A DNA stretch of 30,508 nucleotides from a virus, in IMG/VR virus record IMGVR_UViG_3300037258_001212, positions 1-30,508 of that record. One strand, given 5' to 3'. Positions 4,311-27,881 of this stretch are shown piece after piece. The translations under genes were made by a program, and so were the position numbers. Numbering within the stretch: the first letter of the stretch is position 1; every line of letters begins with the position of its first letter. The notes under the pieces were generated by a model. It worked only from the letters and a program-made list of their open reading frames with translations, was not told the origin of the DNA and did no database searches.

Positions 4311-4322
4311 TCACAACTCGGC
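4301..4322. terminator. Bidirectional hairpin at convergent stops
   Basis: GCCGAG (4301-4306) pairs with CTCGGC (4317-4322). The 10-nt loop contains the stop codons of both converging genes (TAA at 4308-4310, TGA of the minus gene at 4313-4311). Neither side carries a strong T-run, so termination efficiency is uncertain. Confidence 0.5.
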
Positions 4323-5483: not shown

Positions 5484-5555
5484 ATCTCTCCAGCGTGCGA
5501 AGCATTTAAGGTACTGCGAAACATCATAGGCAATATCCGTGTGAGCCGTCGAGGG

Positions 5556-5561
5556 TATACT
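5556..5561 (+). promoter_or_regulatory. -10-like TATACT immediately before a start codon (leaderless mRNA candidate)
   Basis: TATACT ends 6 nt before the ATG at 5568 and no SD is present, so a transcript from it would begin at or within a base or two of the start codon. No good -35 element is visible at 17 bp. Confidence 0.5.
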
Positions 5562-5567
5562 TCCCCC

Positions 5568-5777
5568 ATGGATACGAACGAACTTATCCGGCAACTCACC
5601 GAAGAACGGAACCGCATCGACGCGGTTATCAAGCTGTTATCTGGCACCATATACACCACCGCGAAGTATGTGGAACCCAAGACCCGCAAGCCGATGTCAG
5701 CCGCCGCACGTAAACGGATCGCGGCGGCACAAAAGAAGCGGTGGGCTGCGCGTAGAGATTCAATGACGAAGAAATAA
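5568..5777 (+). CDS. Small basic protein, probable nucleic-acid binding
   Basis: A 69-aa protein. The N-terminal half (ELIRQLTEERNRIDAVIKLL) is a predicted coiled-coil helix. The C-terminal half is strongly basic and Ala-rich (SAAARKRIAAAQKKRWAARR), like histone-tail or AT-hook-type small proteins. I have the impression that this motif is common in acidobacterial small proteins, but cannot verify that. The ATG follows a -10-like hexamer directly, suggesting leaderless translation. It is divergent from the Mrr gene, with 84 nt between starts, and precedes a second tiny gene whose SD overlaps this stop. It may be a regulator of the cassette. Confidence 0.68.
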   Translation: MDTNELIRQLTEERNRIDAVIKLLSGTIYTTAKYVEPKTRKPMSAAARKRIAAAQKKRWAARRDSMTKK

Positions 5778-12056: not shown

Positions 12057-12061
12057 GTTCG

Positions 12062-12081
12062 GGTCTCCTGTAAAGGAGTCC
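12062..12081 (-). promoter_or_regulatory. SD-sequestering hairpin before the DUF2163 gene
   Basis: On the minus strand GGACTCCT pairs with AGGAGACC (CTCCT/AGGAG plus GG/CC across one mismatch, TTAC loop). The AGGAG is the SD of the GTG start at 12056. Confidence 0.55.
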
Positions 12082-12094
12082 GAAAGTCAGGAAA

Positions 12095-12122
12095 TTGTGG
12101 GGTCACACCGCTCTGCTACGAT
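12095..12122 (+). promoter_or_regulatory. Candidate promoter for the plus-strand gene at 12142
   Basis: TTGTGG (12095-12100) and TACGAT (12117-12122) are separated by 16 nt, with a TGC extended -10. A start site near 12129 would precede the SD at 12132-12136. Confidence 0.42.
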
Positions 12123-12141
12123 TGCTCAACTGGAGGCTAAC

Positions 12142-12396
12142 TTGGCGATTGAACTTCAAACTGACGGCACCGGTAATGTCATTACATGCCCAATGACAGG
12201 GTGGGGAATTAAGCCGGTTGCGGAAACGATGATTCTTCTAGCTATCGAGTATGTAGACAGTCCAGAGCAACTCGAAACAGGGGAGCGCAAGCAGCTACAG
12301 GCCATACTGCACTCACACCAAGCCCTAGAGCTTGCGGAGGAACTGAAAAAGGTAGTGGCACTTCTCGAACCACCACCACTTGGTTCGTTGAACTAA
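12142..12396 (+). CDS. Plus-strand 'moron' gene inside the tail operon, unknown function
   Basis: 84 aa on the strand opposite to all flanking tail genes. The TTG start is chosen for GGAGG 5 nt upstream; the frame upstream of it looks non-coding and runs antisense to the DUF2163 gene. The product reads as a real soluble protein: AIELQTDGTGNVITCPMTGW, then ETMILLAIEYVDSPEQLETG, then a long helix HQALELAEELKKVVALLEPP. No family recognised. It has its own promoter candidate and a terminator-like hairpin at its end, the hallmarks of a moron (an added gene expressed in the lysogen). Superinfection exclusion or host-benefit roles are possible but unproven. Confidence 0.66.
   Translation: MAIELQTDGTGNVITCPMTGWGIKPVAETMILLAIEYVDSPEQLETGERKQLQAILHSHQALELAEELKKVVALLEPPPLGSLN
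12366..12387 (+). terminator. Terminator-like hairpin at the end of the plus-strand gene
   Basis: CGAACCA (12366-12372) pairs perfectly with TGGTTCG (12381-12387) around an 8-nt loop, overlapping the last codons. It is followed by TTG but lacks a T-run, so it is a weak terminator candidate. Confidence 0.35.
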
Positions 12397-12422
12397 TTGA
12401 TTTCTGCATCGTAGTTCTCCTC

Positions 12423-13070
12423 TTATCGGTACTCGATCACCGGAAATGAGAGCCGGGTCGTCCGACTGGCATCGGCAGACCACGTGCGCTTGTTTGTGGC
12501 CAATCTGAAAAGTCCCTTGGGATTGGCTGTGATGACCGGAGCCGAGGCGGCAGGAACTTCACGCAATGACGGCCAGATGTTGATGGTTGCGTTGCCATCG
12601 CTGTCGGAGTTGACAATGCCGAGCACTCGGTGGAGTCGGTACCCGACTTGGATGTAGTCGCCGGGAAGCAACAGACCGACCTTGCTGGGCGTCCAGCCGA
12701 TGGTTGTAAGCGTGTACTGGCCGAAAGAATCTACCGGGGACGCGGGACACGTTGGAGTGCCAAGTGGGTTGCCTCGCGGTGACGCTTTCATGGGGTCACA
12801 AATCTGAATGGCATTCATCATGCCCCTGCATTCCATGAGAGCAGACACCCACACGTCAGCTTCTTCTTGCGACAGCGGAGGCAGAGTCACGGTCGCGCCC
12901 CACATGTCGCCGCCGACCCAAGCCTGAGCCTGTGTCTGCTGGGTATATGGACTAGCGACGATGGCGACAGCATCCGTGAAGTTCCACTCGACGGCATTGG
13001 CTCCGTCAATGGGCGGGGTCGCCACGAGCGTCACGTCGTTGCCGTTGAGGGTGATGGTAGTCATGCTCAT
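12423..13070 (-). CDS. Probable distal tail protein
   Basis: 215 aa. Beta-rich with an immunoglobulin-like or tube-like flavour: ITLNGNDVTLVATPPIDGAN, WVGGDMWGATVTLPPLSQEE (a fold seen in phage distal tail and tail tube-like proteins), and a C-terminal LLLPGDYIQVGYRLHRVLGI segment ending RTTRLSFPVIEYR. It lies directly after the 107-aa gene (no gap) and before the DUF2163 gene, the place taken by gp12 (DUF2460) in gene transfer agents. The distal tail role is inferred from position and strand composition; it does not show an obvious DUF2460 signature. Confidence 0.62.
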   Translation of the reverse strand: MSMTTITLNGNDVTLVATPPIDGANAVEWNFTDAVAIVASPYTQQTQAQAWVGGDMWGATVTLPPLSQEEADVWVSALMECRGMMNAIQICDPMKASPRGNPLGTPTCPASPVDSFGQYTLTTIGWTPSKVGLLLPGDYIQVGYRLHRVLGIVNSDSDGNATINIWPSLREVPAASAPVITANPKGLFRLATNKRTWSADASRTTRLSFPVIEYR

Positions 13071-13394
13071 TTACTTCTCTCGCCCCAGCCGATCCATCCG
13101 TTGTTCGTTCAAACGCTGAACGTTCTCCCACTCGGGGCGAGGCACAATCGTCCGGCAAACCTCGACGAGGTTGCGCAGGGTTTCTTCCAGACGTGGCAAG
13201 ATGTCCACCTGTACCCGGTGGGACTCTGCAAGCTCGTCAACAATGGCCTCCAGCCGTGCAAGGCGCGTGGCGTTGTGAAGCGAACGGCGAACGAGCCAGC
13301 CAAGGCCGGGGATTACGGCGACGAGTGCGGGAGCCACAATACGCACGAATAGGTTGTCAGGTACAGCAGGTAGCATGGCGACGGTTGTCCTCAT
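13071..13394 (-). CDS. Small membrane-anchored coiled-coil protein (possible holin- or spanin-like)
   Basis: 107 aa. One hydrophobic segment, about residues 16-36 (FVRIVAPALVAVIPGLGWLV), is followed by a basic RR stretch and a long coiled-coil helix (LARLEAIVDELAESHRVQVD to NVQRLNEQRMDRL). Two starts are possible: 13394 or the internal ATG at 13376. It lies between the fibre and distal tail genes. A holin-like or lysis-accessory role is possible because no other lysis gene is evident, but a tail-associated membrane protein is equally plausible. No signal cleavage site is apparent. Confidence 0.58.
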   Translation of the reverse strand: MRTTVAMLPAVPDNLFVRIVAPALVAVIPGLGWLVRRSLHNATRLARLEAIVDELAESHRVQVDILPRLEETLRNLVEVCRTIVPRPEWENVQRLNEQRMDRLGREK

Positions 13395-13421
13395 AGTGAT
13401 TGGGAGCCTTCAAACGGGGGT

Positions 13422-15458
13422 TTACTGCTTTGCATTAGCAACGGCGAAGCGTGCAATGAGACTGCCGAACATCTGACCGCCCAATGTGTTGGGGTGGATG
13501 GTGTCGAGCGTCGTGGTGCCCCAGTTGGTTGAGTTAATGCCAGAGGCCATCGACGCATCCAACACGGGCCAGCCATACATCCCACCGAACACAGCTTGTT
13601 CCGCTGCGATGATGTCGGTGAGTGTGCTGCCTGTAACGCGGCTCTGAAGATACGGTGTGACGGCGATAATAGTGGGCTGCACGGTAGGCGCATTAACCGC
13701 AATTGCAGCCTCAATAGTCGCGGCCACGAATTTGCAGTCCCCGTAGAAAGTAGTAGATGTTCCACCGAACGTGCTGGCTGCATCTGATGGAGTGCCGAGC
13801 GTGTCCCCGCCATCGTTCGTGCCGAACTCGACAACGATGAGCGATGCACCTGCAATCAACACGGCCACGTCTGCAACGGATGTAGACGCGCCGAACGCGC
13901 CAATCATGGCAACGCCACCACCGCCTGACATTCCCGGCGCACCGCTGAGTTGCAACACGGACGCAAACGACGGCGTGTAGTACAGGCCGAACGTGATGGA
14001 GTCTCCGAAGATGAACGCGGTTTTACCAGAGAACGGATTAGCAGTGCCGATGGATGCAGCGACGGTGGCAACTTTGCCATCCACGGTCGTCTGGTCGTAG
14101 ACATCGCCACTTTGATATGGAGAAGGCACAACAGTGCCATGTACCCACATAAGAGTGGCAAAGTCGCCGGTTCCGTAAGATACGCGGAAGTAAGCTGACC
14201 CGGCGGGTGCTGTGATGGTTGTGGTGCCTAAGACCGGAGTTCCCGTCGAAACACCTGTTATGAAGTTGAACGATTTGTCGTAGAAGAAAGCGGCGTTGCC
14301 AGCCGTATTGTTATTCGTCGTGCTTACCGATTGCCCCGGCACAACTGGCATCATGTCCGTAGTCGAGTAGCCCGACTGAGCGGTCAACGTGCCGCCTGAG
14401 TCGTAGTAGTCAGTCACCTTGCGACCGACGCGAACGAGATTGTTTACGGAGAGAGCCTGTGAGGAAACCTTGTTTAAGTCGGCTGCAACAGGCAATGCAG
14501 CAAGCATGGTGTTGGTGGCACTTTCGTCGTACACGTAACCACTGACATAGGTGCCGGGTACAGAGGAACCCCCCACAATCATTAGCGTGCCGACGACGGA
14601 CTGACCCGTGAAGCGCATGAAGAACGCACCGGAGGGTACGGTGACAGTGGTAGATTGACTACCGTCGTAGCTCAGTACGCTGCCACCAACCCCAGAGTAG
14701 TAAAGGACGTTGTAAGGCGCGGACGAAAACGTGATGGTCTCACCCGCCATGACCGGCATATAGTCGCTGCTGCTATAGCCGCTTGTCGTGGGGCTGGTGA
14801 TCGGAATGGGTGTGCCACCGTTCGACCCATCTGAGTTGAGATAGTTGTCAGTGCTTGCCGACAGGTACTTGTAACGATTTGCGGTCAAGCTCACACGGCT
14901 CAAGCTGTCACCAAGCTGTTCCGCCGTTACCCCACCACCATCAGCCCCAGTGGCACCCGTGGCACCCGTGGCACCTGTCGATCCGGTCGAACCGGTTGCA
15001 CCTGTTTCACCCTGTATACCTTGGATGCCTTGTATACCTTGCGGCCCGGATTGGATCGTGACCATCGTTCCCAAATTGGGGACGAAGGTGTCGAGACTGA
15101 ATGAGGCTCCAGATGGCTGAATGACGTAGCCGACCCCGAGGATATTGGTTCCCGTGTTGGGGTCGATGATTTCGACAGCGTAGCCAATGTTGGCGGGGTT
15201 GGTCAGGGAAACGTCAGGCAATTGGGGAGCGATGTCCGATCCGTCTGCGGTGATAACGCCATCCACGACCGGCCACGAGTATGGCTTGCTGACCATCTGG
15301 CCGGAACTGGTGCCGCCGACTCGAAAGCTGATGGGCGAGCCCGTGTTTGTATTGATGGCAGTGAACTGAATCTGGCCGGTCGCCAGTAGCTGGCCTTGCA
15401 ACGTGCCGTAGATGTTTGAACCCGTGATGAGGGTGTAGCCGGATGCGGCGGTAGACAT
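13422..15458 (-). CDS. Tail fibre/receptor-binding protein with collagen-like repeat and SGNH hydrolase domain
   Basis: 678 aa. Domains in order: an N-terminal beta domain (about 1-135, probably attachment to the tail); 13 Gly-X-Y triplets at residues 138-176 (GPQGIQGIQ... GATGATGAD), a trimerising collagen-like shaft; a duplicated beta domain (about 230-325 and 355-460, both with SGY(S)-x-x-D-x-MPV at the start and ending VxVYD-like); and a C-terminal SGNH/GDSL hydrolase. Its catalytic blocks are GDSI (485-488), GTND (546-549) and DTIH (652-655, catalytic Asp/His). It probably binds and de-esterifies a surface glycan. The start at 15458 is ATG; a hairpin holds the AGGGAG SD 10 nt upstream. 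Confidence 0.85.
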
Positions 15459-15467
15459 AGGTGTTTC

Positions 15468-15486
15468 GCTCCCTACAAGAGGGAGC
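15468..15486 (-). promoter_or_regulatory. SD-sequestering hairpin before the fibre gene
   Basis: On the minus strand GCTCCCT pairs perfectly with AGGGAGC over a CTTGT loop. AGGGAG is the SD of the ATG at 15458 (about 10 nt spacing). Confidence 0.6.
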
Positions 15487-15499
15487 AAAAGTCACAGAA

Positions 15500-15769
15500 T
15501 TAGTGGGCAGTCGAAGGGCGACGTGCTCGCTGCTCATTGACTGCCTTCACGCTTCCAGCGACCAGATGCGGAGCGGCGGCAGCGATGCCACGCTGCACGG
15601 CAGCTTCTACCTGTGCTGGGTCGTTCGAGCCACGGGCGTCAATGTTCCAGTGGTGGGTTGTGCTGCCACCGAGACCGGACAGTTTGTAGTTTGGCGTGAC
15701 ATAACCACGGGCGGAGATAATCTCCGGTCCGTGTTCGCCGACCAATCGCCGGCCCGTCCATATAGCCAC
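15500..15769 (-). CDS. Frame-displaced C-terminal end of tape measure protein
   Basis: This reading frame carries the normal tape-measure ending that the main frame loses: VGEHGPEIISARGYVTPNY, then a Gly/His stretch and NDPAQVEAAVQRGIAAAAPH. The main frame gives GGYMDGPAIGRRTRTG instead; moving +1 at 15742-15743 restores GGYMDGPAI-VGEHGPEI, the typical form of this conserved motif. The segment up to the 15500 stop is intact and ends just before the fibre gene region. The coordinates mark the whole open frame; only the part below about 15742 is expected to be tape measure. Either a mutation, an assembly base error or a programmed +1 shift. Confidence 0.7.
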   Translation of the reverse strand: MAIWTGRRLVGEHGPEIISARGYVTPNYKLSGLGGSTTHHWNIDARGSNDPAQVEAAVQRGIAAAAPHLVAGSVKAVNEQRARRPSTAH

Positions 15770-18218
15770 CCGAAGCGAAGCCGGGGAGGATCGTTTTCAG
15801 CAGCCCACCGAATACCCCGCCGAGCTTGCCCGCAGCAGTGCCGGTGACCGAGCCGATGCCTTTTGCCACTGAATCCACGCCCGAGGCCATCCGCACATAC
15901 ATCGGATTAGAGGAAGAGCCTAGCTGTGCTCCCTTGCCGAGGCCGAACATGCCGAGGACTGAACTCTCGGCCTTATTGAGGCCGGTGCTGGCAACGCCAC
16001 GAAACAAGGACTCGCCGACACCTTTGAAGTTCGTCCGTTTGCCCATCATCCCGTTCAGGATTTGCTCATTCAGGCTTGTTAGCGTCGATGTGACGAGTTC
16101 ACGCATTTGCTTGGCGGCGTCGTGGGACGCTGCAACAAACTCCTCCAGACCGTCCTTTGCCCCGCCGAGCGCGGTGGAGCTATTAATTGCCCACTGATCG
16201 CTGACAGTCGTGCGAGAGGCTGTACCAGACACGGTTGCGATCTGAGCGTCCAACTCTTTGCCCTTGCCATCATCCAAATCCTGTTGGGTGAGCGCGGCTT
16301 TCTTGCTTTGAAGGATGGACAACTGGGCAGCATAGTCCGCTGCGTGATCTGCCGCCGCTTGGATCGCAGCATCGTGCTTCGTGAGAGCACCGGTGGATAC
16401 TTCATGCTCCCGCGTAAGGGCATTCAGAGAAAACGTGTTCTTCAGGTTCGCTTCGTCGAGCTTTGCCTGTGCAGCGGCCATGTGAGCGGCTTGCTCGTCC
16501 AATGTATCGGAGAGCCGCTGTGCGGTCTCATCCCAACGCTGGATGGTCTCTGCATTCTTCTTGGCCTCGGCGTCGAGCTTGCGTCCGGCCTCATCGAGGG
16601 CACGGAGCCATGCTTGGTTCGCATCGGCGAACTTGCTGAGTGCGAACTGATGGACTGCCTCGGCGACCTTTCCGGTGCCCTTTGCGGTCGCGTCAGCCAG
16701 TCGTTCCCAAAACGCGACCGTCTCACCGACCGTGACTTCATGGTCAGCCTTCAGGGCTGTGAACTGTGCCTCCATCGCCTTCGTTTTCTCGGCAATTTCT
16801 TTTGAAGTCTTGTCTCCGCTGGTGATGTCGCCCACTCCAGTGAAGCCGGACGTGTCGCCCCGCTGCGCGTTGCGTTGGCGGATCGCATCCATAATCGACC
16901 CGACTTGATCGGTCTGCGAAGGCTTGTTCAGACCGAGGGAAGACAGGAGCATATCAATGGACTTGCGCTGGTACTTCGTGGAATCGGCCAACAGGCCGCT
17001 GCCGAGCTTGGTGAACGTGCCGCCCGTAACGATGGCTGCAACGCCCGTGGCGGCTGCGGCCAAGTCGTAAACTCGGAAAGCCGCAAACTCAAAGGCACGA
17101 CCTATGCCCACCCCGATGTCCCTGAATGCCTCCATGGCACCGTTGCCGCCTGAGACGGTGTTGAGAATCTTATCGAGGGCAGGGAGCAAGCCCTCCGTGA
17201 AGGCCAGTCCCGCACCGGTAGCTTCCTGCCCCAATTCCTTGAGCCGCTGTTGGGTGTGCTCCAGAGCCTCGGCGGTTTCAGAATCCAGCATGTTGCCGGT
17301 TCGCTGAGCGGCGTCGTGGTACTCGTCCCAATGTTGGCCAAGTTCGATGATGGTCGGGATTTGGTCGGCACCGCTCTTGCCGAGCAAAGCGGTGGCGAGT
17401 TCTACGCGGCGGATTGGCGACTCGGTTGCTGCAAGGGTATCGGCGAACTTCTTGAACGCAACTTCGGCACCGTCCTGCCGACCGGCAAGCTCAGTGGCAT
17501 TGAGGCCAAGAGCCTTCATGAACGCAGAAGCCGTCTTGTTGCCTTCAGTCGCCTGACCGATGGTTTTATCCATCTTCGCTACGGCACTGGTCATGCCGTC
17601 AAAGTCCCCTCCTGTGACTGTTGCAGCATAATGCAGGGTGGATAGGGTCTCGACAGCGAGGCCGGTCTTCGCTGAGGCACGCTGGATCGTTTCACCGAAC
17701 TCTAGGGAGGCTTCGACAGCCTCGCGCATCTTGTTGACGAGGACTCCGGCGACGATGCCCGCCGCAGCTATGCCAGCCGTTGCGCCGGACATAGACTCAG
17801 TGATTCCCAAGCTGCCCAGATGTTCGGACAAGCGGTCGTGGAGATAGCCCCCAGTGCTCTGCGATTCCTTTTCAACAGCCGATGCCTCAGCCAGCCGCAT
17901 CTTGGCCGCTGTGAGGCGTTGCAGGGAAGCGGCCTGAGCGTTAGCGGCTGTGGCACCGTCGAGGTATCCACGGTTGATGTAGGTCTGAATTTTACCGTTG
18001 TCGGCGTATGCGGCCTTTTCGTCGGCCTTGGCTTTGACGATACGGAGACTTTGAGCAGAGACGGTATCGCCAGAGAATTTGGCAGCAAGAGCCTGTGCCT
18101 TCGCAGCCTGTTGGGCATCAATGGCGGCTTGCCGAGCGGAGGCACCGACACGAGCAATTTGTTTTGCCGCTGATTCAGCACCTGTCGCAGATACTTTGAT
18201 GTCTAGTTCGTTAGGCAT
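15639..18218 (-). CDS. Tape measure protein (main frame)
   Basis: Determines tail length and spans the tail tube. The main frame gives 859 aa: a coiled-coil start (SARQAAIDAQQAAKAQALAA), a hydrophobic segment near residues 145-165 (ATAGIAAAGIVAGVLVNK), the phage_tail_MAAB-like region (FGETIQRASAKTGLAVETL to LGKSGADQIPTIIELG), long helical Ala/Lys/Glu-rich stretches, and Gly/Ala-rich segments near the end (GKLGGVFGGLLKTILPGFA). The frame is broken near 15742, so the last 34 residues after GPAI are probably not authentic and the full protein would be about 906 aa. The start overlaps the gp10-like gene stop by 8 nt. Tape-measure identity is firm. Confidence 0.9.
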   Translation of the reverse strand: MPNELDIKVSATGAESAAKQIARVGASARQAAIDAQQAAKAQALAAKFSGDTVSAQSLRIVKAKADEKAAYADNGKIQTYINRGYLDGATAANAQAASLQRLTAAKMRLAEASAVEKESQSTGGYLHDRLSEHLGSLGITESMSGATAGIAAAGIVAGVLVNKMREAVEASLEFGETIQRASAKTGLAVETLSTLHYAATVTGGDFDGMTSAVAKMDKTIGQATEGNKTASAFMKALGLNATELAGRQDGAEVAFKKFADTLAATESPIRRVELATALLGKSGADQIPTIIELGQHWDEYHDAAQRTGNMLDSETAEALEHTQQRLKELGQEATGAGLAFTEGLLPALDKILNTVSGGNGAMEAFRDIGVGIGRAFEFAAFRVYDLAAAATGVAAIVTGGTFTKLGSGLLADSTKYQRKSIDMLLSSLGLNKPSQTDQVGSIMDAIRQRNAQRGDTSGFTGVGDITSGDKTSKEIAEKTKAMEAQFTALKADHEVTVGETVAFWERLADATAKGTGKVAEAVHQFALSKFADANQAWLRALDEAGRKLDAEAKKNAETIQRWDETAQRLSDTLDEQAAHMAAAQAKLDEANLKNTFSLNALTREHEVSTGALTKHDAAIQAAADHAADYAAQLSILQSKKAALTQQDLDDGKGKELDAQIATVSGTASRTTVSDQWAINSSTALGGAKDGLEEFVAASHDAAKQMRELVTSTLTSLNEQILNGMMGKRTNFKGVGESLFRGVASTGLNKAESSVLGMFGLGKGAQLGSSSNPMYVRMASGVDSVAKGIGSVTGTAAGKLGGVFGGLLKTILPGFASGGYMDGPAIGRRTRTGDYLRPWLCHAKLQTVRSRWQHNPPLEH

Positions 18219-18681
18219 ACTTCTTCACCGTCTCTTCCAGCACTTTCTGCATGGCTTCCTCAGCCGGGTGCAATGCCGCCTCGTAGCCAGTCCGAATGAA
18301 TGGAATGGCCGCGACTTCGCCGATGACCGTGCCTCCGGCACGGGCTCGGCCACCGGCCACAATTCGGTGTCCGTATTCGAGCCATCGAGCGACGTGGGCA
18401 ACATGCTTGTCCGGACCGACGCGGGCGGTCACTGGTTCGTCTTTTGTCATGTAAACGTGAATGCCATCGCGGACAGCACCGGGAGGCAGGGCATTGGAGC
18501 CAGCGAGTTCTTCCTGAAGTACAGGAGCGCGTTCCACCACCGCATCTTTGAAGACGTTGGCACCGGCACGCACCATTCGGACTTGTGCGGGACGGGCGAG
18601 GTCTCTGGCAAGTTCATCCATCTTGGCCGCGAGAGCGTCGAAGCCAGCGAAGTCATACGAGATGGATGGACAGTCAGCCAT
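18211..18681 (-). CDS. HK97 gp10-like tail/neck protein
   Basis: 156 aa. Pattern typical of HK97-gp10 family tail components: 'DFAGFDALAAKMDELARDL' N-terminal helix, 'GANVFKDAVVERAPV', 'ARVGPDKHVAHVARWLEYGH' and a C-terminal 'AIPFIRTGYEAA'. In relatives this protein closes the tail-terminator region. It is coupled to the G-T chaperone by a TAATG overlap and overlaps the tape measure start by 8 nt. In most HK97-like phages it lies before the major tail gene; here it follows the chaperones, an unusual order. Confidence 0.68.
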   Translation of the reverse strand: MADCPSISYDFAGFDALAAKMDELARDLARPAQVRMVRAGANVFKDAVVERAPVLQEELAGSNALPPGAVRDGIHVYMTKDEPVTARVGPDKHVAHVARWLEYGHRIVAGGRARAGGTVIGEVAAIPFIRTGYEAALHPAEEAMQKVLEETVKKYA

Positions 18682-19064
18682 TACGATCTTTTCCTACTCA
18701 GGTCAGGGAACATAGCGCGGATGCTCTGAGCGATTGCCTTCCGCCGCTTATGCGTCATTCGCTTCGACGTGGACTGGATACCTCGCTTGCGTGTCTCCCA
18801 TTGGCTCGGCATAAACTCCTTCGGAGCCATCGGCTTCGTGGGCGACCGGAACCCGGTGTTGACGACCGCCGAAGTAAGCTGTGCCAGCATGAATTCAGCG
18901 TGGTCACGTTCGGATGCACGGTAAGCGTTATGCCGGATCAGCAATGCATCAAGCTGACGCGGCGTCATCGCGTAGAACTCGTCGGGATTCAGTTGCAAGT
19001 CATATACAGCCGCCGACCAAAACCGCAGCCACAACTCCTCGTCGCTTAGGGTTGTGGCTGGCTG
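18681..19064 (-). CDS. Tail assembly chaperone T domain, reached by -1 frameshift
   Basis: This frame has no credible start of its own: TTG at 19034 lacks a properly spaced SD. It opens before the G stop and encodes QPATTLSDEE, then LWLRFWSAAVYDLQLNPDEF, MTPRQLDALLIRHN and a basic C-terminus. This is the typical T part of G/G-T chaperones, which recruit tail tube and tape measure. A -1 slip at the AAACCCC heptamer (19070-19064) would fuse 122 G residues to 127 residues here, giving a 249-aa G-T protein. The stop (TAA) overlaps the next ATG. Confidence 0.78.
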   Translation of the reverse strand, partial: QPATTLSDEELWLRFWSAAVYDLQLNPDEFYAMTPRQLDALLIRHNAYRASERDHAEFMLAQLTSAVVNTGFRSPTKPMAPKEFMPSQWETRKRGIQSTSKRMTHKRRKAIAQSIRAMFPDLSRKRS

Positions 19065-19429
19065 GGGTTTTCCTTGGCATCCTTATCCGCCTTGGGGATG
19101 CACGCGCTATAGGCGTCTCCCACGGCGTCATAGATACGTCCCAACTCGGGAATACTGATGAGCTTCTCCACCTCTACCGGAGTAATGTCCGGCTGGTGGG
19201 TAAGCATCGCAGCATAGAGCAGAGCCACAATTGTCTCAGCGTCCATATCCACGTAGAGAGCCCGAAGCAGATTGACCGCGATGCCAGCAGCGCGGAGCTT
19301 TGCCTGTGCATGAGCCATCGCGGCGAATGTGAAGCACAGATAGAACTCCTTGCCGTCGAGGATCAGGGGAATCTTGGGCAGTGTCGGATCAAGTTCTGGG
19401 TTCCCGGCGACTTTGCCTCTCTTCGCCAT
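19046..19429 (-). CDS. Tail assembly chaperone G
   Basis: 127 aa; assists tail tube assembly, not part of the virion in relatives. ATG at 19429 in a TAATG overlap with the tail tube stop. Core features: 'PKIPLILDGKEFYLCFTFAA', 'GIAVNLLRALYVDMDAETIV' and 'LLYAAMLTHQPDITPVEVEK', as in GTA/lambda-type chaperones. It ends with a charged/Pro-rich tail (KEN-PSQPQP) containing the slippery site. The 4-gene order (tube, G, G-T, then tape measure after gp10) supports the call. Confidence 0.8.
   Translation of the reverse strand: MAKRGKVAGNPELDPTLPKIPLILDGKEFYLCFTFAAMAHAQAKLRAAGIAVNLLRALYVDMDAETIVALLYAAMLTHQPDITPVEVEKLISIPELGRIYDAVGDAYSACIPKADKDAKENPSQPQP
19064..19070 (-). other. Programmed -1 frameshift site AAACCCC
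   Basis: On the minus strand the heptamer A-AAC-CCC matches X-XXY-YYZ in the G frame (codons AAC CCC), and slipping to AAA CCC preserves both pairings. It is 5 codons before the G stop. Downstream GC-rich, GGCUGCGG-like segments might add a stimulatory structure, though none is obvious. Confidence 0.6.
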
Positions 19430-19914
19430 TAGCTCGTCACCGTCCAAACGCCGTCGATTTCAACCGTGTAGGAAATCTCCGATGCCTTGGTGAGGTCGAT
19501 GTCGAACCCACCGGCTTCAGTGACAATGCCAGAGAAGGCGATCATGGTGCCAGTCGTCACTGGCGGCGAGGAATACTCGTAAACTTCCTCGTCCACGGGA
19601 AGCTGAATCTGGAAGTCGTAGGGAACGGTGGACGCAGCAGCAGCAAGCATTGCGGCCTGACCGGCGTCATTTGGAACCTGTAGGACGGTGAAGGTGAATG
19701 TGCCGTAGTCAGGCAACGTCGCCATCTTGCGTTTCGCCGGAGTGGCAAAGTTCGACACATCGACGGTTGGAACCTTGATGCCCGAGAACTTGGCGGTTGT
19801 GACTTCGCCGACTGGAGTGAATGTTTCGGACATACCGGGATATCCGGTAGGGAAACCGATAGACACTGTCGTGCCGATGGCGAGAGAAGATGCTTTGGAT
19901 GGTGATTGCGACAT
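19429..19914 (-). CDS. Major tail tube protein
   Basis: 161 aa. Forms the tail tube. Beta-rich profile with 'IGTTVSIGFPTGYPGMSETF', 'VGEVTTAKFSGIKVPTVDVS', the 'GTFTFTVLQVPNDAGQAAML' strand and C-terminal 'GFDIDLTKASEISYTVEIDG', matching lambda V/HK97-type tube proteins. The ATG has AGGAG 7 nt upstream, in the arm of a stable hairpin. It directly precedes the G chaperone by TAATG overlap, the expected order. Strong expression would be expected. Confidence 0.8.
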   Translation of the reverse strand: MSQSPSKASSLAIGTTVSIGFPTGYPGMSETFTPVGEVTTAKFSGIKVPTVDVSNFATPAKRKMATLPDYGTFTFTVLQVPNDAGQAAMLAAAASTVPYDFQIQLPVDEEVYEYSSPPVTTGTMIAFSGIVTEAGGFDIDLTKASEISYTVEIDGVWTVTS

Positions 19915-19921
19915 GGTGAGA

Positions 19922-19957
19922 CTCCTATAGGCGGGGGATAAATTGCCCTCGTATAGG
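19922..19957 (-). promoter_or_regulatory. SD-overlapping hairpin before the tail tube gene
   Basis: CCTATA (minus 19957-19952) pairs with TATAGG (19929-19924) with an inner six-position stem (one A/C mismatch) and a GC-rich core. The SD AGGAG at 19926-19922 starts within the 3' arm. It may also act as a terminator/processing stem after the preceding gene. Confidence 0.55.
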
Positions 19958-19980
19958 GGTCAGGTAGTTCAAAAAAGTGG

Positions 19981-20349
19981 CTATCCGTTGTAGAGGACGT
20001 AGAACTCGCAGACCGCTCTATACTGGCGAAGCTCGTCGTTAAAGAAGTCCTGATTCATAAGGTATGAAATGGACATCGAGCCCGACGTATAGCCGCTAAG
20101 AGCAGTCACCACGGCATTCCGTAAGGTCACGGCTTCGAGGTAGGTATTCGACCAGCAATTAACTTCGAAGCGATGACGTTGGTTGCCACGGGTCTTGAAG
20201 GTTGGTGTATTCGAGCCAGCGATGATCCGGTAGTCGATGGCGGGGAGCGTCGGCGTGTCCGGGAGTGCAGCAGGATACACGCGTGTTTCGCATATGGCGG
20301 TCACGGCTGTGGCGGTCGAGATTGCAGTGTAGAAATCGGTCTCGACCAT
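19981..20349 (-). CDS. Tail completion protein, DUF3168-like
   Basis: 122 aa. ATG at 20349 in a TAATG overlap with the adaptor gene; a longer in-frame reading upstream overlaps that gene and looks non-coding. Pattern typical of DUF3168: 'ISTATAVTAICETRVYPAAL', 'LPAIDYRIIAGSNTPTF', 'HRFEVNCWSNTYLEAVTLRN' and 'YRAVCEFYVLYNG' at the end. Members terminate the tail tube and connect to the head. The next gene is the tail tube, 66 nt away, with a hairpin in between. Confidence 0.78.
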   Translation of the reverse strand: MVETDFYTAISTATAVTAICETRVYPAALPDTPTLPAIDYRIIAGSNTPTFKTRGNQRHRFEVNCWSNTYLEAVTLRNAVVTALSGYTSGSMSISYLMNQDFFNDELRQYRAVCEFYVLYNG

Positions 20350-20705
20350 TAGGCGTCCTCGTCGAGCGAATAGCAGATGAGCAGGATTTCTTTGTTTGCG
20401 CGGTTGGGGTTCAGCACCGACTGAATCTCCAGCGTGTGTGTGATCCGCGTAAACGGATCGGTGTAGACGACACGCATGTTGGGTTGAATGACGACTTGAT
20501 ATTGCCACCGGATGGACACACGATAGGTGTTCTTGCCGACGAACTCGGCGGTGGAATAGATCAACTGGGAACGCTGGAAATCGACGTTCGCCCAGCAGCA
20601 AAGCACGGTCGTCCACTCTTGCAATTCCTGCCCAGCCGCATCTTGTGAGGTGGTCTGGGACTGAATTGCGATGGGTGTGTTGTAGTCGCTTGTGCGTGTA
20701 CGCAT
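20349..20705 (-). CDS. Head-tail adaptor (head closure) protein
   Basis: 118 aa, family of phage head-tail joining/adaptor proteins (SPP1 gp16-like, Phage_H_T_join). Features are 'DYNTPIAIQSQTTSQDAAGQ', the W-strand 'EWTTVLCCWANVDFQRSQ', 'GKNTYRVSIRWQYQVVIQPN' and 'RITHTLEIQSVLNPN' with a final short acidic end. ATG at 20705 is 8 nt downstream of the connector stop; its TAA overlaps the next ATG. Structure role inferred from family and neighbours. Confidence 0.8.
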   Translation of the reverse strand: MRTRTSDYNTPIAIQSQTTSQDAAGQELQEWTTVLCCWANVDFQRSQLIYSTAEFVGKNTYRVSIRWQYQVVIQPNMRVVYTDPFTRITHTLEIQSVLNPNRANKEILLICYSLDEDA

Positions 20706-20713
20706 GACGACCC

Positions 20714-21382
20714 CTATCTGTACCCGAACATCGACACACGTTCGGTATCGAGCAGGGCGTTGACGCCGAGTGGAATGTTCTTGAGCGGTAGCTCCGAGGA
20801 GTTCTCCCGGTTTGCGTACCAGTGGGCGACAAGCAAGAGAATCGCAAGCACGATTGTGTGTGGGCAGGTGTTGACCTCGACGCCGTCACCATAAGAACCC
20901 GCGACAAATGTGATCGCCACGGAGCCGGGGATATAGGTTGTAGACTCCGGCCAGATGTTGCCCCATGAGGGAGCGATCCGACCGGGGGTGGAAGTGGTGT
21001 CTACGTTGTATGCGGATGAGGGAACCGTCTGCATGGTGCCCGTGCCGTCAATGTAGGTGATCGACGTGACCGAGACGAGATTGGCACGCGGTATGTCAAT
21101 CGTCAGCTTGTCCCAAAAGAAGAATGGATAGTCGGTACGGGCGGCGGGGTTCAGACTGCTTTCGCCCCATGACAGGGGGAAGAAATCCATCGTGCGCTTC
21201 CACGTTTGGTTGAAGAACGCCCGGTGAGTATATTTCTCGCAGTAGGCACGGGCGGCGGAGATATAGATGGCGATGAGCGCGTCGTCGTTCGGGTAGCCCA
21301 CACGAAGGTGTTCCTTCGCCGTCGCCACGCTGACGGGCTCCACGGCTGGCGGTGTGACGAGTTTTAGACCGAGGGGTGGCAT
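20714..21382 (-). CDS. Head-tail connector protein (gp6-like)
   Basis: 222 aa. The N-terminus 'PVSVATAKEHLRVGYPNDDA' followed by 'LIAIYISAARAYCEKYTHRA' is the hallmark of gp6-like phage head-tail connectors, which sit under the portal. The middle is beta-rich (LVSVTSITYIDGTGTMQTVP), and the C-terminal helix 'HTIVLAILLLVAHWYANREN' is also family-typical. It starts 3 nt after the stop of the 73-aa gene. The GYxGD-style loop is 'GSYGDGVEVNTCP'. Confidence 0.87.
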   Translation of the reverse strand: MPPLGLKLVTPPAVEPVSVATAKEHLRVGYPNDDALIAIYISAARAYCEKYTHRAFFNQTWKRTMDFFPLSWGESSLNPAARTDYPFFFWDKLTIDIPRANLVSVTSITYIDGTGTMQTVPSSAYNVDTTSTPGRIAPSWGNIWPESTTYIPGSVAITFVAGSYGDGVEVNTCPHTIVLAILLLVAHWYANRENSSELPLKNIPLGVNALLDTERVSMFGYR

Positions 21383-21385
21383 GGG

Positions 21386-21607
21386 TTACGAGCGAATGGC
21401 TTTCTCACGCTTGGTGCGTGCCGGTGCGGTTGCAAACTCTTTGGCGGCTTTCTCCGGTACCGGGACGGGAGTGAGTTTCCAGACCTGAGCATTGCCGCTG
21501 TCTACCCACTTCTGGCCGATGGCGTCGTCAACGTCGAGCAATTCGTTCCTAACGAGCGCACGATTAGAGAGAGCGGAAGTGAAAGTCTTTGTAATGCGAA
21601 CGAGCAT
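21386..21607 (-). CDS. Small head-region protein, unknown
   Basis: 73 aa between major capsid and connector genes. N-terminal 'MLVRITKTFTSALSNRALVR' and 'ELLDVDDAIGQKWVDSGNAQ' resemble small head-associated proteins found at this spot in HK97-like phages; the C-terminus is rich in Pro/Ala/Lys (PVPEKAAKEFATAPARTKRE). Its SD is AGAGG. A strong hairpin separates it from the capsid gene. Possibly head-tail joining; no firm function. Confidence 0.65.
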   Translation of the reverse strand: MLVRITKTFTSALSNRALVRNELLDVDDAIGQKWVDSGNAQVWKLTPVPVPEKAAKEFATAPARTKREKAIRS

Positions 21608-21629
21608 TTGAAGCCTCTATAAACGCCCG

Positions 21630-21661
21630 AAGGTGCGACCCCGGTTGTGAGGCCGCACCTT
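21630..21661 (-). terminator. Stable hairpin after the major capsid gene
   Basis: AAGGTGCG (21630-21637) pairs perfectly with CGCACCTT (21654-21661), with additional CC/GG pairs inside. On the minus strand it lies 13 nt after the capsid stop and before CGGGCGTTT. Likely a partial terminator or mRNA-stabilising stem that raises capsid expression over the downstream genes. Confidence 0.6.
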
Positions 21662-21674
21662 ACAGGGCGGGTGG

Positions 21675-22877
21675 TTACGAGTGGGTGACCAGCTTCAGGA
21701 TCGGGTGGGTTCCGGCGTCGGTCGATGCGCCACCGACACGGGTGTAGGCGACGAAGCCCACTTCCAACGTGTCCATGTAGCGTTCGTTAAGCCGCACGAA
21801 GCTCATGTCTCCATCGGTGCGGAGCAGGTAGCCCTGTGCAAAGTCGCCGTAGAGGATTCCGGCGTTGCCAGCGACGTATGCCGAAGGCAGCGACTGGTTG
21901 AGCACGATAGGCCGACCGAGGATATGGTCGAGCACGCCTGAGTTCGGATTTGGAATGAACAGAGGGCGACCGAGACCATCGACCAAGCCCATCACATTGG
22001 AACGGGTGGTGGAGGACATTACCCACGAGGCGTTCGCCTCATAGGACGGGTCAAGCGCGGAGTAGCACGCCGTGAAATCGTCATACACGACCGTACCGGC
22101 AGTTGCGGATGTAGCACCGAGAGTCGCACCAGATACGACGGATGCGATATTGGAACTGTTACCCAGCGTGATGTACTGCTCCAAGCCACGTGCGTAACGA
22201 ATGCCAAACTTGGTGCGAAGCCAAGAAGCTAAGTCAAACGAGGCGTCGTCGAGTTCCTGCAACGAAACCTTGACGAGCGTGGCAATCGTGTCGGTGTACA
22301 TGAGAAACCCACCGAACGTCGGGTCTGAATTGGTCGGAGGCGAGGAAGTCGTGGTGTCCAGCAACTGCGAACCTTCACCAAGCGTGACAAGAATGTTTGC
22401 ATTGTCATTGCTAGTCGCAATTTTGATGGGGGCACCGTTGTTGTTTGTCACCTTCTTGCCGACAACGTTAATCATCTGACCGACGTACTTAGTCGCGTCG
22501 ATGACGTTCTGGTTGTAAAGCTGCGGGATGATGGCTCCGCCAGTTGCTGAGGAAGTGGTGAGCAGATCACGCTTTTCACCGGTGCGGAAGTAGTGCTCGA
22601 AGGCACGCATCTCACCGGCTTTTTCAGCGTCACCGGCTTCGGGGGTGCCCCGAGGCGGACGGACGGTTGACCGAAGTTCCGACTCCACCTGAGCGATCTT
22701 TTCGGCAGTGGTGATGTCAGCCGCGAGAATGTCTGCGTCGGCAAGCATCGCATCGACCTTAGTCCGCGTCTCTGCGGCCTTGGCCTTGTCTTCCATGTGG
22801 CTGATGGTGAGGGACAGGTCGCGTGCGTCAGTGACGAGCTTTACTCGCTGCTCCTTGAGTTCTTGAATAGTAGGCAT
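21675..22877 (-). CDS. HK97-type major capsid protein
   Basis: 400 aa. The first ~110 residues form a coiled-coil delta/scaffold domain (IQELKEQRVKLVTDARDLSL), expected to be removed by the S78 protease. The mature part begins near 'GEKRDLLTTSSATGGAIIPQ' and shows the HK97 pattern: 'VVGKKVTNNNGAPIKIATSN', 'YTDTIATLVKVSLQELDDAS' and 'YARGLEQYITLGNSS', with 'HILGRPIVLNQSLP' in the C-terminal half. Start at 22877 is chosen for an AGGA SD; an in-frame upstream start has no SD. Hairpins lie on both sides of the gene. Confidence 0.95.
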   Translation of the reverse strand: MPTIQELKEQRVKLVTDARDLSLTISHMEDKAKAAETRTKVDAMLADADILAADITTAEKIAQVESELRSTVRPPRGTPEAGDAEKAGEMRAFEHYFRTGEKRDLLTTSSATGGAIIPQLYNQNVIDATKYVGQMINVVGKKVTNNNGAPIKIATSNDNANILVTLGEGSQLLDTTTSSPPTNSDPTFGGFLMYTDTIATLVKVSLQELDDASFDLASWLRTKFGIRYARGLEQYITLGNSSNIASVVSGATLGATSATAGTVVYDDFTACYSALDPSYEANASWVMSSTTRSNVMGLVDGLGRPLFIPNPNSGVLDHILGRPIVLNQSLPSAYVAGNAGILYGDFAQGYLLRTDGDMSFVRLNERYMDTLEVGFVAYTRVGGASTDAGTHPILKLVTHS

Positions 22878-22879
22878 TG

Positions 22880-22912
22880 TGTTGTCCTGTTTGTGAATTC
22901 GCAGGATCAACA
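22880..22912 (-). promoter_or_regulatory. SD-sequestering hairpin before the major capsid gene
   Basis: On the minus strand TGTTG-A-TCCTG pairs with CAGGA-CAACA, ten base pairs with one bulged A and a 12-nt loop. It holds the AGGA SD and ends 3 nt before the ATG at 22877. Confidence 0.65.
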
Positions 22913-22953
22913 CGACCCCAGCCGTGTGCCTCTGCGTGGGCGGTGTGGGGTCG
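22913..22953 (-). terminator. Hairpin between protease and capsid genes
   Basis: CGACCCCA (22913-22920) pairs perfectly with TGGGGTCG (22946-22953); the 25-nt loop can form extra GC pairs. It adjoins the SD hairpin, giving a tandem stem structure. It lacks a T-run, so a transcript processing or stability role is as likely as termination. Confidence 0.45.
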
Positions 22954-23009
22954 CCATTGAAGGCACAGCACTGGGCTGACCGACACCGTCTACTCAGGGG
23001 TCTGGTAGT

Positions 23010-23693
23010 TCATTTATTTGCTAACGTCGCCAAGGCGAGGCGAATCCGTAGATCGAGATTCAGGTTGGCTTCGCGTTCGTCATCGTCGGTAGTGGGATCA
23101 GCCGACCGTGTGTCTGGCTGGTCGGGGCAGGAGCACTGCTCGTCGCCCGCATCCCTCTTGGCCAGCTTCGTCCGAATTTCAATGGGTGCGTTGCGGAGGC
23201 TGAGCGAGGTATCCGGGTAGGCCGGGAGGCACGTCACAGTGATTTCGAACAGATCGACATCCAGCAGCGTGCGAACTGCGTCTCCCGAAGCGTCTTCGCC
23301 CCATGTGTCGTTCTGGCAAATGAAGCCGAACGAGCATCCCGAGATGTCTCCACGCTCGATGAGCACGATCAGGTCTGCGGCTGTAGTTGTGTCGGGGAGG
23401 ATGACCGAGAAGGCCAGTCCATTATTGTCGGTGTTGAGTGACAGCGTGCCCGAGACCGTGCGGCCAAGCACAAGTGAGGTGTCATGGCTATAGAGGCACA
23501 GTACGTCGGGGTTCTCCGTGAGAGTGCGGGTAAATGCGGACGGCGACACAATCTCGAACCAGCCGCCCATATCCACGCTGGGCGAATTGAAGACCGCAGC
23601 GTAGCCCGTCAGAACACGCTGCCCTTTGTCGTTCGTGGCGATACGAAGCTCGGTCGGCTTTATCTGTCGTACTTCATGCTTCACTGGGTTCAT
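23010..23693 (-). CDS. HK97 family prohead protease (S78)
   Basis: 227 aa. Cleaves capsid delta domains during head maturation. Family signatures: 'LTGYAAVFNSPSVDMGGWFE', catalytic His70 in LYSHDTSLVLGR, and Ser121 in GDISGCSFGF, with 'LFEITVTCLPAYPDTSLSLR' following. A short, Asp/Arg-rich C-terminal tail (after about residue 180) with CSC is not part of the core. The start overlaps the portal stop by 20 nt. Position before the capsid gene is canonical. Confidence 0.93.
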   Translation of the reverse strand: MNPVKHEVRQIKPTELRIATNDKGQRVLTGYAAVFNSPSVDMGGWFEIVSPSAFTRTLTENPDVLCLYSHDTSLVLGRTVSGTLSLNTDNNGLAFSVILPDTTTAADLIVLIERGDISGCSFGFICQNDTWGEDASGDAVRTLLDVDLFEITVTCLPAYPDTSLSLRNAPIEIRTKLAKRDAGDEQCSCPDQPDTRSADPTTDDDEREANLNLDLRIRLALATLANK

Positions 23694-25440
23694 GGGATAC
23701 TCCTATCTCTTGTTCAGCGGCGAAGGCTGCTGCATCGCGGCGGATATTGATAACGAGGGATCGCACTGCCTTTGCGAATTCGGTGCCGACAGCAGACTCG
23801 GCGTCATCAGCGGTGTATGTTTCCGCTCTCTTGGCAAGCGACCGGCAGACGGTCTCGACGTGCCTATCGAGCGCGGCAGACGGCATCATCGTCAGGTGGT
23901 TCTGGCTCATCGCTGTATCTTGGGCAACGTCCGCGATAGACCTCAGAACGGGCGCAAAGAGTGCGGCAACGGTCTCGAAATCCCGCTTATCACGCTTCAA
24001 TAGCCGCCCAAATGCATCGCGGTAGATGCTTATATAGGCGGTTGTGTAGCGTCCCAGCATCGAACGTTCGGCTGCGGTAGGTGTGGCATCGTCGTGGCTG
24101 TTGCCGTCGCCGAGAAGAGGCTGATCGCCGATGGGCTGATCCTGAACACTTTCGGTGTCGAGTAACCGGTCAGCGTTTTGCATGTTGACCGGCACCCAGT
24201 AGGTGTCGCCAACCGGACCGATCGGATTCCAGCCAAGCTCTGTACGAATGTCGTTGGTGGACAGCCATCCCCACTGTTTGCCAGCGGCGTATCCAGCGGC
24301 TTGGGATTCCGTGTCGCCCCTCAACCTTTCGGTCACATCGAATTGCACTTCGAAGCGGCCTGAGTTCCGGCCAATGGTAGGCAGGAGCTTGCGGGTGACC
24401 TCGGATTCCAACCGAGACAGATAGGGTCGAATGCAGTCGGTGATGAATTCCCGTGAAGCGTTTTCTGCGTTCGCGTTCGACAGCTTGGTGGTGTCTCCCA
24501 CCATATGTGGGGGCACACGAAAAATAGCGCAGATTTCAGAGCGTTGAAACTGACGCGCCTCGATGAACTGGGCGTCTTTGTTGTTTGTCGAAGTCGGCGT
24601 GTATTTCCAATCGCCGGGGAGCACGGCTGTAGACCCCTGTTTGTCCCCGCCCTGAGTTCTGTTCCACGAATCCTTCACAGCCTTGATTGCGTCGTCGTCG
24701 AGGTCAGAGGTCGTGGACAAGATTCCACCGGGACGAGCACCATTCCCAAAAAATCGAGCACCGCTCTTCTCCGCCGCACGAGCGAGGCCGATGCCCTGAC
24801 GCGCAAGCTGGATCGGAGAGAAGCCCTTCATGCCGTCGAAACTGAACAGCGGGCAATGAAGGATGTTCGCGGCGGGGATACGGCGAGTCCTACCGTCCGT
24901 CATTCCATCTGTGGTCTCGTAGATCACATCGCCGGGGGTTCCGTCTGGCTTGGGTGGGAGCCGCTTGGGCTCCGTCAGGTCTGGCCGCAACGGCCAGATG
25001 GCGACCGCACGGCCACCCTTGTCTCGCTGAATCTCGGCATACGCGTTGCCGGTAAGAGCTAGGGAGCCGGAGAAGCTCTCCCAAAAGGTAAACGCGGTCA
25101 TTTCAGGGTTCGGAGCGACACCGAGGAGATAGGTCAGGTCGTGGTCTGGTGCATCCTTCCGGCCTTGATCGGTTAGTTCGAAAACCCGGACGGGTAAACT
25201 GGCGACCGTCTCACTGATGACCCGGACGCATCCGTTGACCGTCGCCTGTTGGAGCGCAGTGAGGATGGTGACTTGTTCCCCGGACGCCGTGGGTTCAGCA
25301 CCTGACGCCCAAGCTAGAAAGCCGGAAGTCGAAAGCGGAATGGCGGGATTATTGAGCGGGTCGCTACGGAGTTCCAGCTTGGTGATGTCTGGGGAGCGGA
25401 GTTCGGATGCGAATTGTGTGATGGCTGACTTGATGCCCAT
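23674..25440 (-). CDS. HK97-type portal protein with C-terminal extension
   Basis: 588 aa, a dodecameric DNA-entry channel in the capsid vertex. Core features: 'ATVNGCVRVISETVASLPVR', 'YLLGVAPNPEMTAFTFWESF', 'KGFSPIQLARQGIGLARAAE' and 'RVPPHMVGDTTKLSNANAEN', the usual portal motif, then 'LRGDTESQAAGYAAGKQWGW'. HK97 portals are about 400-450 aa; the residues beyond about 455 form a helical extension (YTTAYISIYRDAFGRLLKRD). Two in-frame starts exist: 25440 (MGIKSAIT) and 25461 (MRRDSLR); both lie in a palindromic hairpin. The former seems the natural N-terminus. Confidence 0.92.
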   Translation of the reverse strand: MGIKSAITQFASELRSPDITKLELRSDPLNNPAIPLSTSGFLAWASGAEPTASGEQVTILTALQQATVNGCVRVISETVASLPVRVFELTDQGRKDAPDHDLTYLLGVAPNPEMTAFTFWESFSGSLALTGNAYAEIQRDKGGRAVAIWPLRPDLTEPKRLPPKPDGTPGDVIYETTDGMTDGRTRRIPAANILHCPLFSFDGMKGFSPIQLARQGIGLARAAEKSGARFFGNGARPGGILSTTSDLDDDAIKAVKDSWNRTQGGDKQGSTAVLPGDWKYTPTSTNNKDAQFIEARQFQRSEICAIFRVPPHMVGDTTKLSNANAENASREFITDCIRPYLSRLESEVTRKLLPTIGRNSGRFEVQFDVTERLRGDTESQAAGYAAGKQWGWLSTNDIRTELGWNPIGPVGDTYWVPVNMQNADRLLDTESVQDQPIGDQPLLGDGNSHDDATPTAAERSMLGRYTTAYISIYRDAFGRLLKRDKRDFETVAALFAPVLRSIADVAQDTAMSQNHLTMMPSAALDRHVETVCRSLAKRAETYTADDAESAVGTEFAKAVRSLVINIRRDAAAFAAEQEIGVSHEPSEA

Positions 25441-25461
25441 GCGTAAGGAGTCCCTACGCAT
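25439..25461 (-). promoter_or_regulatory. Hairpin spanning both candidate portal start codons
   Basis: ATGCGTA and TACGCAT are a 7-bp inverted repeat, with inner GG/CC pairs around a bulged base. It contains the ATG at 25461 and touches the ATG at 25440; the AGGG between them may be the SD of the second. It could set the choice or rate of initiation. Confidence 0.5.
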
Positions 25462-27384: not shown

Positions 27385-27881
27385 CAGTTGACTCCATGGA
27401 TGTCAGCGGTATCCACACTCTTTGTCATGCTCATAAATTCCTCAAACGGATCTTCGGCCACGGCTACAGGTGCAACCTGAATACGTGATCGGGATGCCGG
27501 GGTCATGCCGAACTCCACTAGGAATTTGCGCATCAGGTCGAGGGCAGTGTTGGCAACGCCCACAAAAGGATTTTGGATGGGATACCCAGACTTGGGTGAT
27601 TTGATGACTGCACCAAATTTCTGAACCTGAGTGTCGGCATGAACCCACCGGCTCCAAGCTGAGCAATAGGCAGCGAGGGCCGCACGATCAACGGACGTGA
27701 GGAGGCCGAGGCTAGTTAGCTCTTTGCTGATCCGTCGCCATTCCTTTTTCGCATCGGCGTCCAGATGGGACGGGCATGTGGGCGTACCCGTAGGCTTCGG
27801 CTCCCGGCGATTGAGTGGCCGGTGGCCGGGGTTGCCAGCGAGTTCTTTGAGGGCGGTTGGTTTGGGCTTGCGTCCGGGCAT
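27384..27881 (-). CDS. Terminase small subunit, P27 family
   Basis: 165 aa; recognises phage DNA for packaging. The start at 27881 (MPGRKPKPTALKELAGNPGH) is the classic P27 N-terminus; a longer open frame upstream overlaps the methyltransferase gene. 'KKEWRRISKELTSLGLLTSV' and 'DRAALAAYCSAWSRWVHADT' follow the family pattern, and the C-terminus 'ANTALDLMRKFLVEFGMTPA' (oligomerisation helices) is also typical. Its ATG overlaps the TGA of the preceding gene. The next gene is coupled. Confidence 0.93.
   Translation of the reverse strand: MPGRKPKPTALKELAGNPGHRPLNRREPKPTGTPTCPSHLDADAKKEWRRISKELTSLGLLTSVDRAALAAYCSAWSRWVHADTQVQKFGAVIKSPKSGYPIQNPFVGVANTALDLMRKFLVEFGMTPASRSRIQVAPVAVAEDPFEEFMSMTKSVDTADIHGVN

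Follow-up and report, generated by a model that had tools for sequence, protein, structure and literature searches.

Comparative analysis points to a conserved structured leader RNA before the major capsid protein gene of Acidobacteriota phages

The DNA analysed here, referred to below as the window, is a 30.5-kb stretch that makes up one virus record, from a soil phage (IMG/VR record IMGVR_UViG_3300037258_001212, positions 1 to 30,508), and the element under study is the leader of its major capsid protein (MCP) gene. The late genes lie on the minus strand and encode a small terminase, large terminase, portal, head protease, HK97-type MCP, adaptor, tail terminator, tail tube, tape measure, fibre-like protein, distal tail protein, DUF2163-like tail protein and central fibre. 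The GC content of the window is 57%. Comparison with phage records gave no match at the DNA level, and every match at the protein level was below 60% identity. The nearest MCP relative in a named genome belongs to prophage L038 of Granulicella sp. dw_53 (55% identity), and further relatives were found in genomes of that order, from which we infer that the host of the window is acidobacterial (Terriglobales-like).

Reading of the MCP leaders of 30-odd relatives revealed a common pattern upstream of the Shine–Dalgarno (SD) sequence of the MCP gene. The stem before this gene in the window is the 3′ end of an RNA of about 100 nt in the protease–MCP intergenic region. In order, the fold consists of a closing helix, P1, with an outer and an inner part, around hairpins P2 and P3, then a linker, and then P4. 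The MCP gene and the elements of its leader are as follows.

21675–22877, minus strand: MCP gene, HK97 type (phrog_10, E 2e-59)
22896–22989, minus strand: conserved MCP leader RNA, P1–P4 (model R1, 44.8 bits, E 7.9e-6; model R2, 35.3 bits; the window belongs to the seeds of both, and its own scores are not independent; also pair counts on alignments A3 and A6)
22941–22988, minus strand: P1, closing the junction (CGGTGT 22988–22983 with ACACCG 22946–22941; GGT 22981–22979 with ACC 22951–22949)
22966–22978, minus strand: P2, hairpin CAGC-CCAGT-GCTG (helix 3 of A6, 93% paired, both-side changes in 4/4 pairs)
22952–22965, minus strand: P3, hairpin TGCC-TTCAAT-GGCG (hexaloop 22961–22956; helix 4 of A6, 98% paired)
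22900–22936, minus strand: P4 (CGCAG 22936–22932 with CTGCG 22904–22900; ACACG 22927–22923 with CGTGT 22914–22910; register in the window read from the sequence)

The evidence for this fold was obtained from four alignments. A2 (17 leaders, aligned by MAFFT) and A5 (27 leaders) are sequence-only alignments, which provide the stricter tests yet are not blind, as the structure was read from the same leaders; A6 (36 divergent leaders) and A3 were aligned to a covariance model and lean toward their own structure. The result showed that covariation in A2 was 0.360, compared with 0.10–0.15 for partners shifted by one to three columns, with both-side changes in 20 of 25 pairs and none of 500 shuffles scoring as high. 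In A5 the value was 0.376 against 0.09–0.13 for the control. In A6, 85% of the pair cells were standard pairs, covariation was 0.486 (shifted partners, 0.07–0.09), and for 28 of the 30 pairs at least one sequence had both partners changed. GU cells outnumbered AC cells by 101 to 41 in A6 and by 60 to 21 in A3, the pattern expected if the RNA of the coding strand is the one that folds. The lengths of the leader domains differ by single bases, which argues against a coding explanation. RNAalifold run on A2 recovered P3 but not P1, P2 and P4, because these helices are partly out of register in that alignment; pair counting was then used to test the structure read by hand.

The individual helices are conserved to different degrees. 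P1 (helices 1 and 2 of A6) had 90% and 84% of its cells paired, and all 11 of its pairs changed on both sides, as illustrated by CGGTGT/ACACCG in the window, GCTTAG/CTAAGC in L017 and GCAAGG with CCCTTGC in L025. The P3 loop reads UUCRAU in most leaders (TTCAAT in 20/36, TTCGAT in 5/36); the GC/GC of its stem is nearly fixed, and the loop-closing pair alternates between G-C, C-G and A-U. With a loop of six nucleotides and a variable closing pair, P3 bears only a likeness to the tRNA T-arm-like T-loop, a 7-nt UUCRANY loop closed by G-C. P4 (helices 5–7 of A6) was 69–81% paired, with both-side changes in 11/11 pairs. The linker before P4 resembles GCNGCAANGAAGC, GUCCUGC follows P4 in many leaders, and the RNA ends about 20–95 nt 5′ of the MCP start codon. 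Pairing of the P3 loop with other loops or with the linker was checked by eye and found to be inconsistent. The window leader contains a possible upstream open reading frame (MNYQTPE), and none was seen in the relatives examined.

Matches to R1 outside its seed were found in L002 (27.5 bits), in L039 (35.9 bits, with the P4 region skipped in the alignment) and in the Terriglobales prophages L059, L054, L066 and L056 (51.5 to 34 bits). Outside any seed, R2 matched L142 (75.5 bits), L125 (59.6 bits), L149 (46.4 bits) and L067 (33.2 bits); L126 and L141 are copies of L125. In addition, 2.9 million viral contigs were scanned with a pattern made from the P3 sequence, in which the capsid was not used. 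The scan returned 29 contigs, and R1 confirmed 15 of them at 28–75 bits and E < 0.01 (L089, L091, L106, L097, L110, L098, L104, L096, L084, L090, L101, L086, L105, L095 and L087). Two of these, L089 and L091, correspond to seed members L024 and L025; the other 13 are new, and among them L084, L090 and L101 carry an identical leader. The leader lies upstream of the MCP gene in all 15 confirmed contigs, and all 13 new contigs have an MCP of the same family immediately downstream (hmmsearch E 3e-28 to 2e-101). The other pattern matches (among them L083, L088, L092, L094, L099, L102, L107, L108 and L111) scored below 20 bits and were deemed chance.

Each phage has one copy of the leader, and all confirmed copies examined are immediately 5′ of the MCP gene and on its strand; such a fixed position and strand before a single gene family are those expected of a cis-regulatory 5′ leader. 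Among evenly drawn Acidobacteriota genomes (396 for the phylum, 398 for the family), matches occurred solely at prophage capsid loci, under strict filters by which weak copies are lost. Of the 61 rows of an MCP tree, 36 have the leader, which is spread over a deep clade and whose presence required about 10 changes (gains or losses) compared with 19.5 after shuffling; here absence means below detection, and true losses may be fewer. Taken together, the covariation beyond controls, which includes copies outside the seed, and the genomic position argue that the capsid leader is a conserved structured RNA of the coding strand, dedicated to the MCP gene.

Rfam 15 gave no match at the gathering threshold for the window and seven relatives, and nothing close at a relaxed E-value. 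No report of such a capsid leader was found in the open literature searched, subscription papers being outside its scope. The leader is therefore probably a new element, with priority not proven.

The initial annotation had described a 10-bp stem with one bulge that sequesters the SD of the capsid gene. This stem, designated P5, is real and has 11 bp with one bulged A.

22879–22913, minus strand: P5, SD-masking helix, GTGTTG(A)TCCTG 22913–22902 with CAGGACAACAC 22889–22879
22885–22888, minus strand: SD of the MCP gene, AGGA, read from the sequence

Five phages share this pairing (the window, L006, L008, L010 and L012): GTGTTGTCCT, or a similar sequence, pairs with AGGACAACAC at the SD at −16 to −23 kcal/mol, the two strands lying from 12 to more than 60 nt apart. 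On the MCP tree these phages fall into a single supported group (98/99). In L125, which is 68% identical to L010, only 5 bp of P5 are left, as read by eye. Because the 3′ side of P4 and the 5′ side of P5 share nucleotides, the two helices are mutually exclusive. By predicted energies, forcing P1–P4 in the window costs 7.8 kcal/mol relative to the P5 fold and raises the unpaired value of the SD from 0.00 to 0.32; in L006, L008, L010 and L012 the predicted cost is 3–5 kcal/mol and the value reaches only 0.05–0.15. UCCUGC was considered as a family-wide anti-SD and rejected, as it is also kept in L056 and L059, whose SDs are not complementary to it, and as the general rule fails on permutation outside the clade. 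A compact hairpin immediately 5′ of the MCP SD was also seen by eye in L002, L017, L025 and L054, which do not have P5.

Beyond the capsid gene, SD-sequestering stems had been proposed for four further late-gene starts, with the idea that mRNA structure sets the stoichiometry of the late proteins. All five stems are present in the window sequence on the minus strand; the other four are listed here.

15468–15486, minus strand: 7-bp hairpin across the fibre SD (sequence, fold z-score and orthologous leaders; window-specific)
19922–19959, minus strand: stem close to the tail-tube SD (sequence and orthologous leaders; not conserved)
25438–25461, minus strand: stem across the portal start (sequence and orthologous leaders; not conserved)
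12065–12078, minus strand: CTCC/GGAG stem at the DUF2163 start (sequence and orthologous leaders; recent junction, not conserved)

The region from −55 to +10 around each start was folded and compared with 300 dinucleotide shuffles. The result showed that four of the five leaders are more structured than the shuffles (z-scores: fibre −3.0, portal −2.3, MCP −2.3, tail tube −2.2) and that DUF2163 is weaker (−1.5). Most of the 17 other starts in the window gave −0.8 to +1.4, but low values were also obtained at g21607 (−5.95), g19034 (−3.6) and the tail terminator (−1.8). Moreover, the five starts had been chosen by eye for having stems, so their contrast with the other starts is partly selection. 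In the relatives, the orthologous portal, tube, fibre and DUF2163 leaders had z-scores of −0.6 to +1.4, and in most of them the SD region was about as open as in shuffles; by eye, the fibre SD stem, a perfect 7 bp in the window, is kept in L006 and L008 alone, with only 4–5 bp. As judged from these orthologous leaders, the four stems are specific to the window and do not speak for a common mechanism, and a single mechanism for all five leaders was rejected.

For the portal, tube, fibre and DUF2163 genes, then, the proposed control of stoichiometry fails: their stems are not kept in homologous phages, the outcome that had been named beforehand as refuting it. A role for mRNA structure at the capsid gene is strongly supported; its stem stands at the end of a much larger fold whose conservation is well above chance, and the main feature there, the four-helix leader 5′ of the SD, had been overlooked. 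Of the two portal starts given previously, 25440 agrees with homology and 25461 does not. The DUF2163 gene adjoins the distal-tail gene directly in relatives L038, L031 and L003, whereas in the window a plus-strand open reading frame of 99 codons (12097–12396), for which no Pfam match was found, lies between them; the DUF2163 leader is therefore probably a recent, window-specific junction.

We tentatively favour the reading that the capsid leader is a cis-acting structured RNA that sets MCP output in Acidobacteriota phages and is read by a sequence-specific binder. Such a binder, for which a host or phage RNA-binding protein is the candidate and a small ligand is less likely, would recognise the P1–P3 core and the UUCRAU loop. 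For the window's clade, the simplest mechanism would be a default-off translational switch between P4 and P5, in which P5 would form and MCP translation would be low without the binder, and the bound core would hold P4 and permit translation. Sequence and predicted energies suggest that a fold keeping P1–P4 intact weakens or removes SD masking in this clade only; in other clades the same core may act through a different output step.

Several observations weigh against this reading. P4 is weaker than P1–P3 and is absent or reduced in L002 and L096. In L006–L012 the SD stays mostly paired despite forced P4, through 5 bp (GUCCU/AGGAC) and lid hairpins, and the switch would therefore be partial there. 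P5 is clade-specific and shows no double compensatory change, so that it rests on the conservation of both strands. Outside the P5 clade, pairing of each SD with its own anti-SD was not above that with permuted partners (p = 0.83), which limits the proposed SD sequestration to the window's clade. Neither a promoter nor an intrinsic terminator was found in the leader.

Nearly as likely, when the whole family is considered, is an mRNA processing and stability module that would make the MCP message long-lived and capsid output high: a nuclease would cut the single-stranded flank 5′ of P1, P1–P4 would cap the new 5′ end, and a hairpin after the MCP stop codon would protect the 3′ end. The flanking sequences bear on this.

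21624–21669, minus strand: strong hairpin immediately 3′ of the MCP stop codon (sequence fold; similar in most relatives)

In most relatives such a hairpin comes right after the MCP stop; the stem sequences are unrelated, and a U run is mostly missing. Just 5′ of P1, an A/U-rich motif of the RNWUU type (AAGUUU/AAGAUU; for example, L003 9857–9880), which we take to resemble published RNase E preferences, occurs in 27 of 35 leaders compared with 16% of random 21-nt windows, a background drawn from the same whole contigs rather than from intergenic DNA. The lack of an SD-masking platform common to the whole family also fits processing. However, the window itself has no flank motif, and a plain stabiliser would not need the conserved loop and near-invariant P3.

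A binder of P1–P3 might also be a head protein, such as the capsid protein through its N-terminal delta domain, which would make the leader the RNA operator of a feedback loop in tailed phages; this variant is unlikely, and if true it would match capsid synthesis to head assembly, as the coat proteins of RNA phages do. A transcription signal 5′ of the MCP gene, either a put/nut-like antitermination RNA or a pausing RNA, is rather doubtful: a multi-hairpin RNA inside a long late operon, without an evident switch, is compatible with it, but the leader stands solely before the MCP gene and in no case where the late operon begins, and no terminator-like site was found between leader and MCP, with no G+C-rich hairpin followed by a U run in window positions 21500–23200. 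The compact junction core, the variable downstream platform and the P4/P5 exclusion in the window's clade are also features of a small-molecule riboswitch, which we consider improbable because the leader is found solely before a structural gene, a capsid gene would not be expected to be under metabolite control, and Rfam holds no match. Local structure arising by chance in a genome of 57% GC fits the portal, tube, fibre and DUF2163 stems, whose orthologous leaders are unstructured; as an explanation of all five stems it is very improbable, since covariation and genomic context rule it out for the MCP leader.

Tailed phages need hundreds of capsid subunits for each portal ring, although a single operon holds the head genes. 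A conserved leader that is found at the capsid gene alone, and that can be followed across a deep capsid tree, would be a concrete RNA through which the capsid:portal ratio could be set, in viruses that infect Acidobacteriota, a dominant soil phylum.

Known systems resemble the leader in part. The MS2-type coat-protein operator hairpin of RNA phages is located at the start of the replicase gene, where coat protein binds it; it shares a conserved loop and a variable stem tied to capsid production, but the element here comes from a dsDNA phage, is a four-helix leader that belongs to the capsid gene, and has a putative binder. Gene 10 of T7 has its own promoter, a 5′ structured leader and a terminator. 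Its capsid cistron likewise has structured RNA on both its 5′ and its 3′ side, a likeness of layout, whereas no promoter or terminator of the T7 kind was found here. The manA and wcaG motifs are phage-carried, structured candidate cis-regulatory RNAs that were also found by comparative genomics, in their case with metabolic, exopolysaccharide and photosynthesis genes in cyanophages (PMC2864571); unlike them, the capsid leader, which is without a match in Rfam, occurs in Acidobacteriota phages and solely 5′ of the MCP gene. Acido-1 and Acido-Lenti-1 are likewise structured RNAs of Acidobacteria, classed as not cis-regulatory (PMC2864571), and differ in that Rfam scans give the capsid leader no match.

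Two further genes of the window were noted. A Mrr-type restriction endonuclease domain is encoded at 4311–5594 on the minus strand (PF04471, E 1.7e-28), and a protein with ParB-like and DNA methyltransferase family matches is encoded at 27881–29065, also on the minus strand, upstream of the terminase genes.

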